Source: a virus | Virus record (IMG/VR): IMGVR_UViG_3300010885_009104 | Coordinates: 1-22,651 of that record | Strand: one strand, 5' to 3' | Length of the DNA: 22,651 nucleotides | Part shown: positions 12,141 to 21,363 of the stretch, in pieces | Numbering within the stretch: the first letter of the stretch is position 1 | How the letters are laid out: the number at the start of each line of letters is the position of its first letter | The notes under the pieces: generated by a model | What the model saw: the letters and a program-made list of their open reading frames with translations, nothing else | Databases searched by the model: none | Told to the model about the DNA's origin: nothing | Position numbers and translations under genes: made by a program

Positions 12141-12443
12141 TTATCTTCCCAACGCTAGGATAACATCTTTTTTAGGTATATAGATTTTCGTGCCTATACG
12201 CATGTCAAATACAGGATCCCGTATACTATTGGGATTCCTTACCGCAAATACCCACCAGTAGCTTTGATCACCATAAAGATCAAAAGCTAATAGATCGGGT
12301 CTAAATTGATAAGTCTTGTTCACGGTAAACAATACATCTTCAAGAGATCTGCTTATGACAGGTATCTGTGCTATGTCTAGAAATTTGCCAAATAATGGAG
12401 TCTTACTATAAGGACTGGTAGATGAATATTGTGCATTAGCCAT
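12141..12443 (-). CDS. 53: Baseplate wedge protein gp53
   Basis: This 100-residue protein is shorter than T4 gp53 (196 residues) but keeps the family's hallmark: YQFRPDLLAFDLYGDQSYWW followed by VFAVRNPNSIRDPVFDMRIG and a GTKIYIP ending, a LysM-like fold. In T4, gp53 clamps neighbouring wedges together and attaches the wedge to the hub. The ATG overlaps the tube-cap stop as TAATG and has a strong GGAGG about 9 nt upstream inside the preceding gene, which points to translational coupling. It is followed one base later by the hub gene. Same-operon placement with gp5, gp25 and gp6 supports the call. Confidence 0.88.
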   Translation of the reverse strand: MANAQYSSTSPYSKTPLFGKFLDIAQIPVISRSLEDVLFTVNKTYQFRPDLLAFDLYGDQSYWWVFAVRNPNSIRDPVFDMRIGTKIYIPKKDVILALGR

Positions 12444-13267
12444 TAGATAAACCCTCCTGTGGTCTTGCTATTAGTGTTTAAATATGCACCTAGAGCAAAT
12501 TGTTCCAATGTAAAGTTCCTTGACACATTATTCCTGCTGTAGACAGGTTGTAAGGTTATTGCCAATGTACTATTTGTTGGCAATCTTGTAGTTGAAGGAC
12601 CGCCTAGGTTTACTAAGGGTATATTAACATAGTCAACTTCTGATGGCATAGTGTGACTAAACTGTGTTATGACGCAAGGTACATGTGGTAGATAAGTGCC
12701 ACCGTAACCATCTAGAAATACCATCGGGGGTGGTGTTCCTGCCAACGCTGATGCGCCGTAGAACATCTTAGTACAGCTACGGAAGAACTGTATAGCAGCT
12801 ATGAGATATTGACCTTCTGCTATATTCTGTACTGTGAACTCACCGTTGATAGTTATGTTCTGTACTTCACTGCCTTCATAGAAATAAGAGGAATAATTGC
12901 TGTGCGTTAATTGGGATGTCCCATAACGTGCTACGTGATTGATAGTAACTGCCGGAGTATAGGGAAATATGACACCATTGGTAGTATAAAGTGGTTGAGT
13001 ATAAAATATGTTCTGTATAGGCGGTTGGACACTGATCCTGACACGCCAGTCTTCTTCCATAGGGGCAGCACCTTGCCATGTGTAGTTCTGTGCGGTCAAC
13101 GGGGCTGCGCCAGTTTGTGCATTATAACCAGAACTAGCCAGTCTAGCCGATACTTGATCAGAGGTCGCAGTCTGTCGTGCAGAAAAGTCTATGGTTACAT
13201 TGTTTAATGCATTTTGCTGTTCTACCGAGACGCTTGCGCCGCCGTTTGTTGTTGACTCACTTGCCAT
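12443..13267 (-). CDS. Tail tube cap/initiator protein (gp48/gp54-like)
   Basis: The 274-residue product has a Ser/Thr/Gln-rich flexible N-terminus (about 60 residues), then a beta-rich domain: DWRVRISVQPP, NGVIFPYTPAVTINHVARYG, then EVQNITINGEFTVQN and a helix AEGQYLIAAIQFFRSCTKMF, with PPMVFLDGYGGTYLPHVPCV near the C-terminus. This tube-protein-like pattern is the type seen in T4 gp48 and gp54, which cap the baseplate and seed tube polymerisation. I cannot decide between the two from sequence. It is the first gene of the minus-strand virion block, placed directly behind a late promoter (box 13292-13299), and is coupled to gp53 by TAATG. The initiator ATG is at 13267-13265 with AGGG upstream at a rather long spacing. 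Confidence 0.65.
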   Translation of the reverse strand: MASESTTNGGASVSVEQQNALNNVTIDFSARQTATSDQVSARLASSGYNAQTGAAPLTAQNYTWQGAAPMEEDWRVRISVQPPIQNIFYTQPLYTTNGVIFPYTPAVTINHVARYGTSQLTHSNYSSYFYEGSEVQNITINGEFTVQNIAEGQYLIAAIQFFRSCTKMFYGASALAGTPPPMVFLDGYGGTYLPHVPCVITQFSHTMPSEVDYVNIPLVNLGGPSTTRLPTNSTLAITLQPVYSRNNVSRNFTLEQFALGAYLNTNSKTTGGFI

Positions 13268-13287: not shown

Positions 13288-13311
13288 TAGATATTTATCG
13301 AAGTCAAAATA
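13288..13311 (-). promoter_or_regulatory. Late promoter of the minus-strand virion block
   Basis: The minus-strand box GATAAATA (13299-13292) sits in a 12-mer identical to that upstream of gp6, with the flanking 24 bp 22/24 identical. The box ends 25 nt before the tube-cap ATG. It is the natural start for the whole 13-kb virion operon and the expected target of gp55, encoded just across the gap. Confidence 0.7.
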
Positions 13312-13330: not shown

Positions 13331-13359
13331 TTGACATAGGTACAAAAAACTGTTATTAT
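13331..13359 (+). promoter_or_regulatory. Sigma70-type promoter for gp55
   Basis: TTGACA at 13331-13336, a 17-nt spacer, and TATTAT at 13354-13359 form a near-consensus host promoter. The start is predicted near 13366, giving a leader of about 20 nt ahead of the ribosome binding site (13373-13378) and the gp55 start. A host-type promoter for the late sigma factor makes sense, since gp55 must be made before late promoters can work. Confidence 0.8.
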
Positions 13360-13372
13360 TCAATGACTTAAC

Positions 13373-13388
13373 AAGGAGTAATAAAATT
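13373..13388 (+). promoter_or_regulatory. AAGGAG ribosome binding site with AUU start of gp55
   Basis: AAGGAG at 13373-13378 is followed after 7 nt by ATT at 13386-13388, in frame with gp55. No ATG or GTG occurs in this frame between the upstream stop (13332-13334) and the sigma-factor core; the only TTG (13494) is 36 codons downstream with no ribosome binding site. Confidence 0.7.
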
Positions 13389-14258
13389 AGGCACAATTAC
13401 CTCAACAACAAAGACATCCTTAAAGAGATCCACAAGAGCAAAACTACATATTGTTCGTATTCTGCTACTGAATACTGTGATTATGATCTGATTTTGGATA
13501 GCGTCAAAAAGATTAATAAGAAAAATATACTGGCGGCTAGGCGGTCAAGGGCGGAACGTTTGGGCAAATTAGCTCACGAAGCCGCGGTATTGGCCACTGG
13601 TGAAAAGCAAAAGTTAGAACAATTTGCTATCAAATACACTAAAATTCTCCAGACTGATGTGGTATTCCGTATCATGACATGGGAACATATACCCTTAGAT
13701 TCCGTTAAAACACAGAAGGCACGTAATACTGCTAAGGAACTATTCGACGACGAAGAAGACCTCATCCATACTGAATACGATGAGTTAGACCCTGCACATA
13801 ACAAATACGTCAAAGTCAACTTCCCCCCTTTCTTCCATTACAAGGTAGACGAAGAGGGTAATCCTTATGTAGTGGGACGTAGTCATTGGAAAGGCGGCGT
13901 AGATCAAGGAGAGTTTTCCAAAGAGCACGGGGCTATGACCAACAAGCTAGCACACATGTTTATTAAACTATGTGAACGCTATGCTACCCGCAGTAACTGG
14001 CGCGGATATACATATAACGATGAGATGCGTAGTCAAGCATTATTACAGTTGAGTCAAATTGGACTACAGTTTGATGAGTCCAAATCTCAAAATCCTTTCG
14101 CTTACTATACGGCTGCTATCACTAATAGCTTTACCCGTGTTTTAAACATCGAAAAACGTAATCAGAATCTACGGGATGATATCTTAGAGATCAATAATCT
14201 CAATCCTAGCTATACTAGACAGAATTGGACAAGTAGCACTAGTAATCACGAGGAATAA
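13386..14258 (+). CDS. 55: Late transcription sigma factor gp55
   Basis: The product, about 290 residues if started at ATT 13386, is the phage sigma factor that directs host RNA polymerase to TATAAATA-type late promoters with the sliding clamp. The N-terminus reads RHNYLNNKDILKEIHKSK, which I recognise as the usual start of marine T4-like gp55. The strongest segment is MTNKLAHMFIKLCERYATRS followed by NWRGYTYNDEMRSQALLQLS and DESKSQNPFAYYTAAITNSF, the sigma region 2-like core, ending near LRDDILEINNLNPSYTRQ. Starting at TTG 13494 (254 residues) would delete the conserved NNKDI segment and has no ribosome binding site, so I place the start upstream. The promoter at 13331-13359 and its position across from late promoters fit its role. 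A sequence error turning ATG into ATT is the main alternative. Confidence 0.9.
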   Translation: MRHNYLNNKDILKEIHKSKTTYCSYSATEYCDYDLILDSVKKINKKNILAARRSRAERLGKLAHEAAVLATGEKQKLEQFAIKYTKILQTDVVFRIMTWEHIPLDSVKTQKARNTAKELFDDEEDLIHTEYDELDPAHNKYVKVNFPPFFHYKVDEEGNPYVVGRSHWKGGVDQGEFSKEHGAMTNKLAHMFIKLCERYATRSNWRGYTYNDEMRSQALLQLSQIGLQFDESKSQNPFAYYTAAITNSFTRVLNIEKRNQNLRDDILEINNLNPSYTRQNWTSSTSNHEE

Positions 14259-14278
14259 GATGTTATAATGTGTAGATG
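14250..14278 (+). promoter_or_regulatory. Chained mini-ORFs leading into gp47
   Basis: GAGGA (14250-14254) is correctly spaced not for gp47 but for ATG 14260, which reads ATG-TTA-TAA. Its stop overlaps the next start as TAATG (ATG 14268-14270), which reads ATG-TGT-AGA-TGA. That stop overlaps the gp47 start as ATGA (ATG 14276-14278). Ribosomes could step through by termination-reinitiation. Confidence 0.5.
14261..14269 (+). promoter_or_regulatory. Candidate extended -10 promoter of gp47
   Basis: TGTTATAAT is a TG-N-TATAAT extended -10 element. No clear -35 is visible. With usual spacing the start would be at or beside A14276, the A of the gp47 ATG, giving a leaderless mRNA. Confidence 0.4.
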
Positions 14279-15292
14279 ACAAACTTATTCAAAAAAGCTG
14301 CAATATTCACTGACATACATTTTGGTCTCAAATCCAACAGTCAACAGCATAACGAAGACTGTTTGAATTTCGTCAAATGGGCTACTGCTAAAGCCCGGGA
14401 AGAAGGTTGCGAAACAGCCATGTTCCTGGGTGATTGGCATAACAATCGTGCCAGCATTAATATCGTCACTCTTAATTATAGTCTACGGGCATTAGAACAT
14501 CTCAACGATAATTTTTCCAATGTGTTCTTTATTCCTGGCAATCACGATCTCTACTATAGGGATAAACGTGATATCCAAAGTGTAGAGTGGGCTAAACATC
14601 TTAGAAACGTTCATATCTGTAATGATTGGGTCACTGCTGGAGATGTTACTATCGCCCCATGGCTTGTAGGCGACGATCATAAGAAGATCCCAAAACTAAA
14701 AAGTAAGTATATGTTTGGGCACTTCGAGCTACCACATTTCTTTATGAATGCCATGGTACAGATGCCAGATCACGGTGATGTTAAGCGTGAACACTTTGGA
14801 AACTTTGAACATGTGTTCACCGGACATTTTCATAAACGGCAGAGTCATAAGAATATTACCTATATCGGTAACTGCTTTCCACATAACTATGCGGATGCAG
14901 GAGACGATGAGCGTGGTATGATGATACTGGAATGGGGCAAAGAGCCAGAATATCATACGTGGCAGGATCAGCCACGTTATAGAGTATTGGGGTTAGGTGC
15001 TATACTAAACAATGCTGAAGGCATATTGAAACCCGGTATGCATGTTCGAGTCAATCTAGATATAGATATCAGCTACGAAGAAGCTAACTTTATCAAAGAT
15101 ACATTTATCAAGACCTACGATCTACGTGAGATCACACTGATTCCCCAGAAGAATACAGATCTCGAACAATATGAGATGCAGGGCAATGTGGCATTTGAAA
15201 GCGTAGATCAGATAGTGACCAATCAATTGACCGCTATCACTAGTGAGCACTATGATAACAATCTACTGTTAGACATATACAGGAATCTTTAA
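14276..15292 (+). CDS. 47: Recombination endonuclease subunit gp47 (Mre11-like)
   Basis: This 338-residue metallophosphoesterase is the nuclease partner of gp46, together equivalent to Mre11-Rad50/SbcCD, acting in DNA end resection, recombination-dependent replication and host DNA breakdown. The metal-binding motifs are in order: DIHFG (13-17), GDWHN (52-56), GNHDLY (88-93), GHFE (148-151) and GHFHKRQ (183-189). Length equals T4 gp47 (339 residues). The C-terminal 80 residues, without catalytic motifs, probably contact gp46. It starts 17 nt after gp55 and its stop overlaps the gp46 ATG by one base (TAATG), so the pair is coupled. The ATG at 14276 has no ribosome binding site at normal distance. 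Confidence 0.95.
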   Translation: MTNLFKKAAIFTDIHFGLKSNSQQHNEDCLNFVKWATAKAREEGCETAMFLGDWHNNRASINIVTLNYSLRALEHLNDNFSNVFFIPGNHDLYYRDKRDIQSVEWAKHLRNVHICNDWVTAGDVTIAPWLVGDDHKKIPKLKSKYMFGHFELPHFFMNAMVQMPDHGDVKREHFGNFEHVFTGHFHKRQSHKNITYIGNCFPHNYADAGDDERGMMILEWGKEPEYHTWQDQPRYRVLGLGAILNNAEGILKPGMHVRVNLDIDISYEEANFIKDTFIKTYDLREITLIPQKNTDLEQYEMQGNVAFESVDQIVTNQLTAITSEHYDNNLLLDIYRNL

Positions 15293-17064
15293 TGTTTAAA
15301 ATCAAAGCATTAAGCGTAAAGAATTTTATGAGTGTAGGTAACGCTACACAAGGTATTGATTTCGATCGGCGTGACCTTACGTTAGTGTTAGGAGAAAACT
15401 TAGACCTAGGTGGGGATGATAGCGGTGCCCGTAACGGTACAGGTAAGACTACTATCATTAACGCACTTAGCTATGCCTTATTTGGACAAGCACTGACTAA
15501 TATCAGAAAAGACAATCTGATTAATAAGACCAATACTAAGGGTATGTTAGTTACTATCGACTTTGAATGCGATGGGGAAAAGTATAGGATCGAACGCGGA
15601 CGTAAACCTAACATACTTAAATTCTACGTAGGTGACAACGAACACGAAAGTAAAGACGACAACAGCCAAGGTGATAGCAGAGAGACCCAGCAGGAGATCG
15701 AGAGATTGATCAATATGAGCCACGACATGTTTAAACACATAGTGGCTTTGAATACCTATACCGAACCGTTTCTCAGCTTAAAATCTAATGATCAACGTGC
15801 TATTATTGAGCAATTACTGGGCATTACTATGCTAAGTGAGAAGGCTGAAGTATTAAAAGAACAGAACAAAGCAACAAAAGATGCTATACAGCAGGAAGAA
15901 TTCCGCATAAAGGCTGTCAATGATGCTAACGAACGTATTAAACAACAAATCGATGCTACTAAACGTAGACAGGCTTTATGGCAGAAAAAGCAAGCCGAGG
16001 ATCTGTCTGCTCTACAGCAATGTTACGATGAATTGGCTAGATTGGATATTGAATCTGAACTAGATGCACATAAAAGTCTAGCCGAATATGAGTCTAAAGA
16101 AAAATCAATTAGAGATCTAAAAGCATCAATCAAACGTTTTGAGCAAGATAATACCAGAGAACAAAAAGATATTAAACGACTACAGGATGAGATACAGGCG
16201 CTAGAGAATCATACTTGTCATACTTGCGGTCAAGCATTCCACGATAGCAAGCAGGAAACAGTATTAGAATCCAAACGTAAGTCTCTAGAGGAAACTTCGC
16301 TACAGAATATTATTACCGAGCATCAGATGATAGAATATAAAAATTCTCTAGATACGCTCGGAGAGTTGGGTCAGTGTCCCGAGGTGTTTTACAAGAATGA
16401 AAGCGATGCTTTTGAACATCGTAGCAGTATGGCCAGTGTACTAACACAGCTAACCGCTAAACAGATGGAAGTAGATCCTTATAGTGATCAGATTCGTGAG
16501 ATGAAAGAGCAGGCTTTAGAAGAAATTACTTACGATCTCATGAATGAACTTACCAGAATCAAGGAACATCAAGAGTTTCTAATGAAACTATTAACTAACA
16601 AAGACAGTTTTATACGTAAGAAGATCATCGATCAGAATCTCAGCCATCTTAACGCAAGATTAGGACAGTATCTAGATCGTATCGGGTTGCCACACGTGGT
16701 TAAGTTCCAAAACGATCTCACTGTTAGCATAGAGGAACTAGGACGTGAGTTAGACTTTGATAACCTCAGCAGGGGTGAACGTAATAGATTGATTCTAAGT
16801 CTCAGCTGGAGTTTTCGTGATGTTTGGGAAAGCTTATATCAACCCGTCAACTTGCTATTTATTGATGAACTGGTAGATAGCGGTATGGATGCTAGTGGTG
16901 TTGAAAATAGTCTTGCTATACTTAAGAAGATGAGTAGGGAAGCAAATAAGAGTATTTGGTTGGTCAGCCATAAAGATGAACTAGCCGGTAGGGTTAACAA
17001 TGTGTTAACAGTAGTAAAAGAAAACGGTTTTACAAACTATAACACAGATGTTGACATCGCCTAA
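15292..17064 (+). CDS. 46: Recombination endonuclease subunit gp46 (Rad50/SMC-like ATPase)
   Basis: This 590-residue ABC/SMC-type ATPase powers gp47. Visible motifs: Walker A GARNGTGKT (45-53), a Q-loop region near LNTYTEPFLS (153-162), long charged coiled coils (about 180-300 and 315-450), a zinc-hook HTCHTCGQ with Cys309 and Cys312 at the coil tip, signature LSRGE (492-496), Walker B LLFIDE (521-526), and the H-loop His560. Every key residue for ATP binding and hydrolysis is present, and the size is close to T4 gp46 (560 residues). It overlaps the gp47 stop (TAATG) with AGGA about 7 nt upstream. The last 17 nt overlap the next gene, so the radical SAM gene is read on the same transcript. 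Confidence 0.95.
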   Translation: MFKIKALSVKNFMSVGNATQGIDFDRRDLTLVLGENLDLGGDDSGARNGTGKTTIINALSYALFGQALTNIRKDNLINKTNTKGMLVTIDFECDGEKYRIERGRKPNILKFYVGDNEHESKDDNSQGDSRETQQEIERLINMSHDMFKHIVALNTYTEPFLSLKSNDQRAIIEQLLGITMLSEKAEVLKEQNKATKDAIQQEEFRIKAVNDANERIKQQIDATKRRQALWQKKQAEDLSALQQCYDELARLDIESELDAHKSLAEYESKEKSIRDLKASIKRFEQDNTREQKDIKRLQDEIQALENHTCHTCGQAFHDSKQETVLESKRKSLEETSLQNIITEHQMIEYKNSLDTLGELGQCPEVFYKNESDAFEHRSSMASVLTQLTAKQMEVDPYSDQIREMKEQALEEITYDLMNELTRIKEHQEFLMKLLTNKDSFIRKKIIDQNLSHLNARLGQYLDRIGLPHVVKFQNDLTVSIEELGRELDFDNLSRGERNRLILSLSWSFRDVWESLYQPVNLLFIDELVDSGMDASGVENSLAILKKMSREANKSIWLVSHKDELAGRVNNVLTVVKENGFTNYNTDVDIA

Positions 17065-17902
17065 AATATTACATATAGAGTCTACAGATGTCTGTCAGGC
17101 TGCGTGTCCTCTATGCGCCCGTGAAAGAGATCCGTTGTTTAACAAAAATCTTAAACATCATCTAACAGTAGATCAAATTAAAGATAAGTTCAGCATAGAA
17201 TTTATACAGGGTTTAGAAAAGATGTTTATGTGCGGCAATTACGGAGATCCAGCGGCCGGTTTAGAAACTTTAGATATTTACGATTACTTTAGAGAAGTTA
17301 ACGACTCTATTACTTTAGGAATGAATACCAATGGTGGTATTCGAGATACTAAGTGGTGGAGGCAATTGGCCCAACGATTAAATCAATCGCAAGATTATGT
17401 GGTGTTTAGTATAGACGGATTAGCAGATACAAATCATATCTATCGAAAAAATGTTGTATGGGAACGTGTTATAGCCAATGCTACCGCCTTTATAGAAGCA
17501 GGAGGTTCGGCACATTGGGATATGTTAGTGTATGCTCATAATCAACATCAAGTTGAAGATTGTGAACAGTTAGCAAAAAACATGGGTTTTACTTGGTTTC
17601 GCGCTAAAGTCAGTCGTCGTCCGTATATAAACGGACTAGAATTTCCTGTAGGTTGGAATAATCCCGTAAAGACAGATGGTAAAATCCAATGCATCGCTCT
17701 TAAAGAGCAAAGCGTTTACATCGACGCACAAGGTCGTGTTAGTCCATGTTGCTGGCTAGGTAGTAGACAAAAAGAGTTTGTTACATTAGAGCAGGTATCT
17801 GCATCGTGGGGTATCGACCCGCATCCTGTATGTCGAGCAACCTGTTCTGGATCCGATAACAGTTTTACAAATCAATGGCAAAGAGAGGTACCACTATGTT
17901 AG
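17048..17902 (+). CDS. Radical SAM enzyme with SPASM-like C-terminus (first of pair)
   Basis: This 284-residue protein carries the radical SAM cluster motif CX3CX2C at Cys16, Cys20 and Cys23 (VCQAACPLC), which binds a 4Fe-4S cluster that cleaves S-adenosylmethionine to start radical chemistry. A CGNYGDP segment (62-68) takes the place of the GGEP SAM-binding motif, followed by MNTNGG (92-97) and SIDG (121-124). Near the C-terminus, Cys215, Cys234-Cys235 (VSPCCW), Cys262 and Cys266 resemble a SPASM/twitch auxiliary-cluster domain found in enzymes that modify peptides or proteins. Substrate is not identifiable; no precursor peptide is visible nearby. The ATG overlaps the end of gp46 by 17 nt and lacks a strong ribosome binding site, suggesting coupling. 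The following gene is a paralogue. Confidence 0.82.
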   Translation: MLTSPKILHIESTDVCQAACPLCARERDPLFNKNLKHHLTVDQIKDKFSIEFIQGLEKMFMCGNYGDPAAGLETLDIYDYFREVNDSITLGMNTNGGIRDTKWWRQLAQRLNQSQDYVVFSIDGLADTNHIYRKNVVWERVIANATAFIEAGGSAHWDMLVYAHNQHQVEDCEQLAKNMGFTWFRAKVSRRPYINGLEFPVGWNNPVKTDGKIQCIALKEQSVYIDAQGRVSPCCWLGSRQKEFVTLEQVSASWGIDPHPVCRATCSGSDNSFTNQWQREVPLC

Positions 17903-18903
17903 CCACATGGCACTTTCACATAGAAATATCCAGTAAATGTACCTTACGCTGTCCAAGATGTGCCCGCCAAGAAGTGCCCAACGGTCTAATCAATACTGAG
18001 TTAGATTTAGCGTTCTTCAAACGAAATTTTACTCCGCAATTTTTGCTAGATAGTGTAGAGAAGATCACGTTTTGTGGAGATGATGGCGATCCTATCTACG
18101 CTCGAGAGCTGATCCCGGTAATACAGTATATTAAAAGTGTTAAACCCGTAGAGATCGTGATAGTCACCAATGGGTCATATAAAACTACCGAGTGGTGGGA
18201 AACATTAGCAAGATCTCTCTACGAAAATGACAGTATACATTTTAGTGTAGACGGGTACGACGATACGTCTAATAATCTGTATCGAGTCAATAGCGACTTT
18301 GACAGCATCATGGTCGGAATTAAAACCGTTAGGGCCAACTCTAAATGTATAATAACTTGGGCGGCGATAGCATTTAAATTTAACGAAGATCACTTAGACA
18401 GTATGCAAGAACAAGCAAGGGCATTAGGTGTTGATATTTTCCAAGTAACCAAATCAACTAAATTCGGTAGTGTATATCCCAGTTATGGTGCTGATGATCC
18501 TTTACAACCTAGTACGAAGTTTGTTAGTATTACACATAGATTCCAACGCGAAATAACTCAGCTGACGGCTCGTCGAGAAAATCCAATACACATGATTAAT
18601 CTAAAGATGTACGATCAAGTTAAAAATAACGAAAATATTGTACCCTTGTGTGAGATTGGAAACAAAGGGTTATATATCGATGCTAGGGGTAGATTATTTC
18701 CTTGCTGTTGGGTAGCAAATAGATATAATCACAATACAGAATGGCAATCATTAGCAGAGAAATTCAATCTGCATAACAGAAGTCTAGAAGATGTTATAAA
18801 TGATCCATTCTGGGGGAACGAATTTAAAGCGTTTAAATGGCAAGAATGCAAGACAAAGTGCAATAAACGGGCGGTAGATCAAGAGTATGCTACATCATGG
18901 TAA
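17896..18903 (+). CDS. Radical SAM enzyme with SPASM-like C-terminus (second of pair)
   Basis: I start this gene at ATG 17896 (335 residues) because GAGAGG lies 7 nt upstream; the in-frame ATG at 17875 has no such site. It shows CX3CX2C at Cys15, Cys19 and Cys22 (KCTLRCPRC), a CGDDGDP segment parallel to CGNYGDP in its neighbour, VTNGSYKT, SVDGYDD, and C-terminal LPxxx-type cysteines: a Cys ahead of GLYIDARGRLFPCCWVANRY and a final ECKTKC pair. The shared motifs, including YIDAxGRxxPCCW, show it to be a diverged duplicate or sister of the preceding gene. It overlaps that gene's stop by 7 nt. Function is likely radical-based modification of a peptide, protein or small molecule; the target is unknown. 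Confidence 0.82.
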   Translation: MLATWHFHIEISSKCTLRCPRCARQEVPNGLINTELDLAFFKRNFTPQFLLDSVEKITFCGDDGDPIYARELIPVIQYIKSVKPVEIVIVTNGSYKTTEWWETLARSLYENDSIHFSVDGYDDTSNNLYRVNSDFDSIMVGIKTVRANSKCIITWAAIAFKFNEDHLDSMQEQARALGVDIFQVTKSTKFGSVYPSYGADDPLQPSTKFVSITHRFQREITQLTARRENPIHMINLKMYDQVKNNENIVPLCEIGNKGLYIDARGRLFPCCWVANRYNHNTEWQSLAEKFNLHNRSLEDVINDPFWGNEFKAFKWQECKTKCNKRAVDQEYATSW

Positions 18904-20476: not shown

Positions 20477-21321
20477 GAGCCTGTTACGAAAAAATTTGCG
20501 TAGTCAAACTCCACGCTGGTAGTAAATTGAAATTTACAATCTCCGCAGACTATAGTTTCTTCACCTGAGCCGGATTGGCTATTAAGTTCAGCAAATTTAG
20601 CATCTAGAATTTTTATTAACTTGGAGTCAGCGTTCTGATAAAACTCAAAGATAAACTTCTTATCGCTTACTACTTGATTGTCCATGGTCTGTATATATTC
20701 TGTGCTGTCCGCTAATACGTCGATGTTCAGCTCGGCAATCTTACGCATCTGTTCTTTAAGAGCTGTTAATCTCTGCTCTTCAGGGACAGACACATCTGAA
20801 AACTGGGTTACCATACGCTGTTCTTCAAATCTGCTGCTATTGATCTTGTTGACTGATATGTAAGGTTGTGGTTTAAATTTGATCTTTAAACTATCCGTAG
20901 CAAGTAAGGAAGAAAAATCAGGCTGTTTGATACGTGATAGTGTATTCTGCAGATCAATTTCGTATTCATTGGTTTGCTTGCATGATGGGCAAGTTACATT
21001 AACGGGCAATTTGTTGCCGTAGCTGGCGATCCGTATAGCGATGAATACTGCATCTAGATCCACGCTGGGTAGCTGCCATGCATCTTTTATATCAGGTATA
21101 CAGCTCTGTATAACTTCTACAACACTGAGACCGTTGATCAATGCATCAGGTGTTTTCAATGTGACTTCATCCCGTGATGTCAACGGATACACAGGTAATT
21201 CTCCGGATTCTGGCATATTTAAGGAACCTTCAGGATAGAATTGTCCCTGACTAGGCAACTTAAGATAGATAACTGGTTGTCGAAAATGTTTAAGTAAGGG
21301 GTTTGGAGACTTGATTTCCAC
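20473..21321 (-). CDS. 26: Baseplate hub protein gp26-like
   Basis: I start at GTG 21321 (282 residues) because AAGGA (21334-21330) lies 8 nt upstream, and family-like sequence begins there (VEIKSPNPLLKHFRQPVIYL). Starting at ATG 21423 would add 34 unrelated residues and cross the late promoter box. Typical features: LPSQGQFYPEGSL, then a PLTSRDEVTLKTPDALINGL block, VIQSCIPDIKDAWQLPSVDL and AIRIASYGN, which I recognise from gp26 of marine T4-like phages. Two CxxC pairs (Cys111/Cys114 in CPSC; Cys259/Cys262 in CGDC) suggest a zinc site. T4 gp26 is a hub component next to genes 51 and 27-29. The gene is driven by a late box at 21363-21356. Its last codons contain a slippery A-AAT-TTT-TTC run. 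Confidence 0.82.
   Translation of the reverse strand: MEIKSPNPLLKHFRQPVIYLKLPSQGQFYPEGSLNMPESGELPVYPLTSRDEVTLKTPDALINGLSVVEVIQSCIPDIKDAWQLPSVDLDAVFIAIRIASYGNKLPVNVTCPSCKQTNEYEIDLQNTLSRIKQPDFSSLLATDSLKIKFKPQPYISVNKINSSRFEEQRMVTQFSDVSVPEEQRLTALKEQMRKIAELNIDVLADSTEYIQTMDNQVVSDKKFIFEFYQNADSKLIKILDAKFAELNSQSGSGEETIVCGDCKFQFTTSVEFDYANFFVTGS
20488..20497 (-). promoter_or_regulatory. Candidate -1 frameshift site at the end of gp26
   Basis: In the gp26 frame the minus strand reads A-AAT-TTT-TTC, which fits the X-XXY-YYZ slippery pattern (A-AAU-UUU) and overlaps a second, U-UUU-UUC. It lies five codons before the gp26 stop. A -1 shift continues without a stop through five codons into the TTG-started 72-aa ORF. 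Confidence 0.5.
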
Positions 21322-21333
21322 GGTTGAAGTCCT

Positions 21334-21341
21334 TATAAATA
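21334..21341 (+). promoter_or_regulatory. Late promoter box of the tape-measure-like gene
   Basis: TATAAATA, identical to the T4 late consensus, lies 30 nt before the ATG at 21372. By T4 spacing the start is near 21347. It also covers the ribosome binding site of the divergent gp26 gene. Confidence 0.65.
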
Positions 21342-21355
21342 GTTGATGTACTCTA

Positions 21356-21363
21356 TATTTATA
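21356..21363 (-). promoter_or_regulatory. Late promoter box of gp26
   Basis: TATAAATA on the minus strand (21363-21356), 34 nt before the GTG start of gp26; predicted start near 21350. It faces the plus-strand box at 21334-21341 across 14 nt. Confidence 0.65.

Follow-up and report, generated by a model that had tools for sequence, protein, structure and literature searches.

A recurrent AUU start codon on the phage late sigma factor gene gp55: a candidate translational throttle

Introduction

Few events in bacterial gene expression are as rare as a natural AUU start, for which infC and pcnB are the textbook cases. Late transcription in phage T4 is subject to replication-coupled control. Initiator tRNA reads AUU with a third-base mismatch that IF3 disfavours (PMC10158994), and the rare starts of infC and of Streptomyces sigR are both held down by IF3 (PMC5472188). 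E. coli pcnB (poly(A) polymerase I) is annotated at ATT in MG1655, and Binns and Masters (2002), as cited in PMC13009471, describe an AUU start that limits this potent regulator. In S. aureus, the conserved starts of cvfC1 (AUU) and ccpN (AUA) are directed by an extended Shine-Dalgarno sequence, and AUU or AUA starts combined with such a sequence give about 10% of the AUG yield (PMC13009471). The bacterial background is one AUG-to-AUU switch among 61,358 reconstructed starts (PMC5622118). For T4 with a hypothetical stronger late sigma factor, dosage and timing relative to replication have been argued to be critical, since an excess would compete for RNA polymerase core (PMC2988020).

Here we analyse a gp55 homologue in the window, the whole 22,651-nucleotide stretch of DNA studied (positions 1 to 22,651 of IMG/VR record IMGVR_UViG_3300010885_009104). 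A preliminary description of the window had read gp55 as starting at AUU, with E. coli infC as precedent. The precedent is apt in layout, as MG1655 infC reads ttGGAGGaataaggt ATT AAA; AUU-type gp55 genes share with it the AUU start, an AAA second codon and a strong GGAG Shine-Dalgarno sequence a few bases upstream, and gp55, like infC, is set apart by its start codon. They differ in that the gp55 spacing of 7 nt is slightly shorter, that control by IF3 would apply to gp55 by analogy, and that the product is a phage late sigma factor rather than IF3, so there is no autoregulatory loop. The parallel with sigR (PMC5472188) is that of a sigma factor whose rare, IF3-discriminated start was missed by annotation. 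The sigR start, however, is GTC and not ATT, its product is a bacterial stress sigma factor with an anti-sigma partner, and its repression by IF3 is experimental, whereas gp55 would be limited in this way on the strength of the comparison. The AUU start of pcnB stands in a weaker Shine-Dalgarno context in a bacterial gene, while cvfC1 and ccpN are Firmicutes genes in which the extended pairing is longer than in gp55.

Among cultured phages, PA5oct, 121Q, RaK2 and GAP32 encode the same protein family (PHROG 12791) in the same divergent gene order with gp47 downstream, but in these and others gp55 is annotated with a start that precedes the conserved N-terminus by a few codons. AB897757 (K64-1) and PP191103 (PHA46) contain gp55 with no annotated gene under the match. 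We found no earlier description of an AUU-start gp55 in the open-access literature.

Results

The gp55 homologue occupies positions 13386-14258 on the plus strand (290 amino acids plus stop). It matches PHROG 12791, a late sigma factor family, with an E value of 7e-76, and tblastn aligns it with genes of cultured relatives annotated as late sigma factor. Direct reading of the gp55 frame places the upstream closing stop, TGA, at 13332-13334 and finds no ATG, GTG or TTG until TTG 13494, which lies 36 codons downstream of ATT 13386. The ATT at 13386-13388 is followed by AGG CAC AAT TAC CTC AAC AAC AAA GAC, encoding R H N Y L N N K D. The same reading bears out that the Shine-Dalgarno sequence AAGGAG (13373-13378) is separated from ATT 13386 by exactly 7 nt (13379-13385). 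The consensus-like promoter and short leader claimed for the gene are also present on the plus strand: a -35 box TTGACA (13331-13336), which contains the in-frame stop, is followed after 17 bases by a -10 box TATTAT (13354-13359) of the extended type, with TG at 13351-13352, one base upstream. Promoter spacing would put the transcription start such that the leader is about 20 nt. Promoter-like matches are enriched upstream of gp55 relatives in comparison with shuffled sequences, and the near relative L117 has boxes identical to those of the window. A search of the leader for a hairpin masking the ribosome site gave only a weak one (z -1.8).

The protein begun at AUU scores 256 bits against PHROG 12791 and the form begun at TTG 13494 scores 212. 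The match spans residues 2-279 of 290, and residues 2-36 are conserved. The gain of 44 bits indicates that the 36 residues between ATT and TTG belong to the protein, and it upholds the claim that the conserved N-terminus is encoded upstream of any canonical start. The open reading frame list gives TTG 13494 for this gene, the choice expected of automated callers, and thereby loses the conserved N-terminus. Initiation of gp55 at AUU 13386 is strongly supported by comparison with related genes.

A nucleotide search of phage sequences returned no match to the window, and relatives were drawn from IMG/VR. A protein search that ignored the start gave 80 relatives, eight of them with ATT at the homologous codon; in seven of these eight no canonical start occurs before a stop. 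Many of the others have ATG, GTG or TTG at that codon, and in the rest the start precedes it by a few codons. The ATH and DTG patterns were each scanned for at the start codon, and matches with homology to gp55 were combined with the protein-search set into one pool. The pool comprises 216 distinct loci, with 70 ATT, 9 ATC, 4 ATA, at least 82 ATG and at least 30 GTG, counts that are not population frequencies (ATH and DTG were scanned separately, and the DTG figures are minima). The remainder start a few codons upstream. Together, ATT and ATC occupy this position in about 79 of the loci, which derive from many metagenomes. There is no canonical start back to the preceding in-frame stop in 58 of these 79, and the upstream canonical codons in the others mostly lack a ribosome site. 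The nearest relative, L117, comes from a different metagenome and carries the same ATT at 96% protein identity. In L004 and L107 a stop codon immediately precedes AAA ATT, so nothing upstream can supply a start. Among the relatives examined, none has its start where TTG 13494 lies.

Other codons at this position were considered. The four loci with ATA each have their own upstream ATG and were not counted, TTG is the better reading in L104, one of the ATT loci, and the start of L124/L492 is ambiguous. A scan for CTG at the start codon found none in the collection. AAG, ACG and AGG mostly prove to be ordinary codons within genes that begin canonically; 11 such loci have no canonical codon within 12 codons and resemble longer N-termini. 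Five pattern matches in bacterial genomes had no gp55 homology.

The start codon evolves unlike an ordinary isoleucine codon, as judged from codon usage in the same genes: ATT, ATC and ATA number 70, 9 and 0 at the start, against 28, 27 and 16 and 17, 20 and 42 at two internal isoleucine codons (chi-square 5e-10, ignoring relatedness). A second, distant clade of gp55 proteins, which share 42-49% identity with that of the window, was checked by an unbiased protein search. In each of the eight nearest members of this clade the codon is ATT or ATC and stands behind a G-rich ribosome site, one member being ambiguous through an upstream ATG.

Switching between start types was followed on two gp55 trees, one built with FastTree from 181 proteins with the start codon left out, the other with IQ-TREE from 175 proteins after removal of long branches. 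Changes between AUU/AUC and canonical starts number at least 17 and at least 16, respectively; independent contrasts on branches with good support number 11 on the first tree and 12 on the second. Some of these switches could be due to recombination of leaders. The ATT state is kept across deep divergence, over which third codon positions are highly variable.

The codon is coupled to its ribosome site. A GGAG Shine-Dalgarno sequence precedes 62 of 66 AUU/AUC starts but 9 of 115 canonical ones; for AUU/AUC starts the spacing is 7 nt in most, and the consensus is AGGAGAANNAAA ATT AAA CAC. Phylogenetically independent pairs agree, about eight having the expected GGAG coupling and none or one running against it (median p 0.008 and 0.039 on the two trees). 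The sister loci L183 (AGGAG; AGGAGATGCAAA ATT) and L243 (AGGAA; AGGAAACACAC GTG) have nearly identical promoters and form, in sequence terms, a near-minimal natural pair. The AUU reading of the preliminary description is strengthened by this pattern, in which the same codon is exchanged for AUG, GUG, UUG or AUC among relatives and the stronger Shine-Dalgarno sequence accompanies AUU.

Gene calling covered 1.42 Mb and about 1,518 genes from 12 sources, namely the window and 11 contigs, and used a score combining coding bias and Shine-Dalgarno sequence. The outstanding AUU gene is gp55 in nine of the 12, and gp55 provides the sole convincing AUU start among all the called genes. ATT calls elsewhere win by low margins only, and their frequency is no higher than that of calls at control codons such as AAA, AAT or ACT. 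Those inspected in contig G002 mostly have ATG one codon earlier or nearby; one further call, at G006:190, lies at a contig end. The caller overlooked the gp55 of G014 despite its ATT start at 17857, so a few further AUU genes are possible. The genes that follow gp55 in its own orientation, gp47 and gp46, begin with ATG. Use of AUU beyond gp55 in these phages is apparently almost nil.

No IF3 homologue was found in 20 phage contigs; most of these are fragments, in which such a negative counts for little, and the greatest weight falls on G001 (338 kb) and G002 (360 kb). G001, an AUU-type phage (loci L331 and L332), carries a single tRNA cluster of roughly 15 kb with about 39 genes, and none of its three CAU-anticodon tRNAs has the GGG/CCC anticodon stem of an initiator tRNA. 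As neither a phage IF3 nor an initiator tRNA was found, the discriminating factor would be that of the host.

Downstream of gp55 lies gp47, encoding an SbcD-like nuclease subunit (14276-15292, plus strand; PHROG 100), whose ATG start is in the open reading frame list. On the other side is a divergent virion structural protein gene (12443-13267, minus strand; PHROG 12050), an arrangement annotated also in cultured relatives. A late-promoter-like GATAAATA for this divergent gene (13292-13299, minus strand) lies in the intergenic region it shares with gp55. The corresponding motif, which reads TATTTAT on the plus strand and ATAAATA on the minus strand, occurs upstream of gp55 in 71 of 77 AUU/AUC loci, where 5.7 are expected. 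The gene thus has the surroundings of its family, adjoining gp47/gp46 and a divergent virion gene in a genome with TATAAATA-type late promoters. By homology and context the product is a T4-type gp55 late sigma factor, predicted to bind core polymerase and, together with the sliding clamp, to initiate at late promoters.

Discussion

We propose that initiation at AUU 13386 probably acts as a conserved, gene-specific translational throttle on gp55. A strong sigma70-type promoter would supply the message, and the strong Shine-Dalgarno sequence (AGGAG, 7 nt) would recruit the 30S subunit. Formylmethionine would be inserted at AUU, where the third-base mismatch with the CAU anticodon is expected to make initiation inefficient and sensitive to host IF3. 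The output of late sigma factor would then be small and IF3-limited despite the strong promoter, and gp55 would be prevented from taking over the RNA polymerase core prematurely or in too large an amount. By analogy with the systems described above we infer a low gp55 yield, dependence on IF3 and a benefit in late-gene dosage or timing. The host's IF3 and anti-Shine-Dalgarno sequence are assumed to be typical. Retention of AUU with a strengthened ribosome site, rather than AUG with a weak one, hints at sensitivity to IF3, beyond low yield alone, as the purpose of the arrangement; this is the least certain part of the proposal. Many close relatives carry AUG or GUG gp55 starts and do well with them, so a throttle would be dispensable, and the stronger Shine-Dalgarno sequence could merely repair a weak codon.

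Such repair is central to a nearly neutral account, in which AUU is a tolerated weak start that arose by mutation, was rescued by a stronger Shine-Dalgarno sequence and has no regulatory role. The frequent switching among AUU, AUG and GUG and the compensatory-looking changes in the ribosome site, like those at GUG and UUG starts (PMC5622118), would fit it. Drift, however, should also hit the roughly 1,500 other genes of these phages, in which AUU does not recur, and it sits poorly with the maintenance of ATT across deep divergence and its recurrence in the second clade; we regard this account as improbable. A dynamic sensor is doubtful, although it is the strongest of the competing readings. 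Here gp55 synthesis would rise as the abundance of IF3 relative to ribosomes or initiation complexes shifts during infection, and translation would time the late switch in the manner of infC. AUU and AUC are the very codons of infC, whose use is set by IF3 levels (PMC5472188), and a strong Shine-Dalgarno sequence that restores capacity points to something besides low yield as the reason for keeping the codon. On the other hand, no IF3 homologue was found in the 20 phage contigs, and the S. aureus AUU gene cvfC1 does not respond to growth medium (PMC13009471).

The remaining explanations fare worse. A phage that turned AUU into an efficient start, for instance through its own initiator tRNA or initiation factor, might be suspected from the large tRNA complement of G001 with its three CAU tRNAs; the lack of initiator stems in these, the failure to find IF3 in 20 phage contigs and the absence of AUU from the other called genes make this very improbable. 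Initiation elsewhere, at TTG 13494 downstream or at an upstream or shifted site, is harder still to credit. Gene callers would list TTG 13494, and an incidental canonical codon stands upstream in some loci, but the downstream start forfeits the 44 bits of conserved N-terminus, including aromatic residues near the N-terminus that have been described as invariant in gp55 (PMC2988020). The stops abutting AAA ATT in L004 and L107 oppose an upstream start, and the divergent orientation of the neighbouring gene leaves nothing to couple to or frameshift from. The preliminary description had named a single-base error in the window, ATG read as ATT, as the plain alternative. ATT is indeed one base from ATG, yet about 70 relatives from separate metagenomes, L117 among them, share it in independent assemblies, and error can be treated as excluded. 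The throttle is the simplest reading and the one we prefer.

On this evidence the rare AUU start recurs in dozens of lineages of uncultured T4-related phages and is specific to one gene, which encodes a viral master regulator. The gene exists as AUU, AUC, GUG and AUG alleles, each with a Shine-Dalgarno sequence to match, and so offers a natural evolutionary experiment on what rare starts are for. The AUU start also suggests a control point in late phage transcription additional to the replication-coupled one of T4. For annotation, the consequence is that gene callers would drop the N-terminus of the late sigma factor in these phages. More speculatively, across a large family of T4-like and jumbo phages the middle-to-late switch may be gated at translation initiation, gp55 being the one gene subjected to start-codon proofreading by host IF3 and equipped with a strong Shine-Dalgarno sequence to match, an arrangement that would have arisen repeatedly. 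We favour this wider view only tentatively; if true, the onset of late-gene expression would be set by the condition of the translation machinery in the infected cell.

Other features of the locus and the window

In AUG-type relatives a late-promoter-like motif often lies about 40 nt from the gp55 start and overlaps the likely gp55 promoter; polymerase carrying gp55 might there repress its own gene. An inverted repeat of the type GTTAG-N6-CTAAC covers the -10 region in 14 of 33 GTG, 13 of 78 AUU/AUC and 3 of 97 ATG loci. It is found upstream of gp55 in L008, L013-L017, L122 and L173, among others, and is a possible operator.

Elsewhere in the window, the baseplate hub gene on the minus strand is listed from TTG 21423, though GTG 21321 behind AAGGA appears the likelier start (region 21319-21363); a late promoter TATAAATA lies at 21363-21356. 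Two adjoining genes with radical-SAM domains follow gp46 (17048-18903). The small protein encoded at 18924-19352 matches PHROG 447, whose label, NAD synthetase, is doubtful here, and has a weaker match to homing endonucleases.
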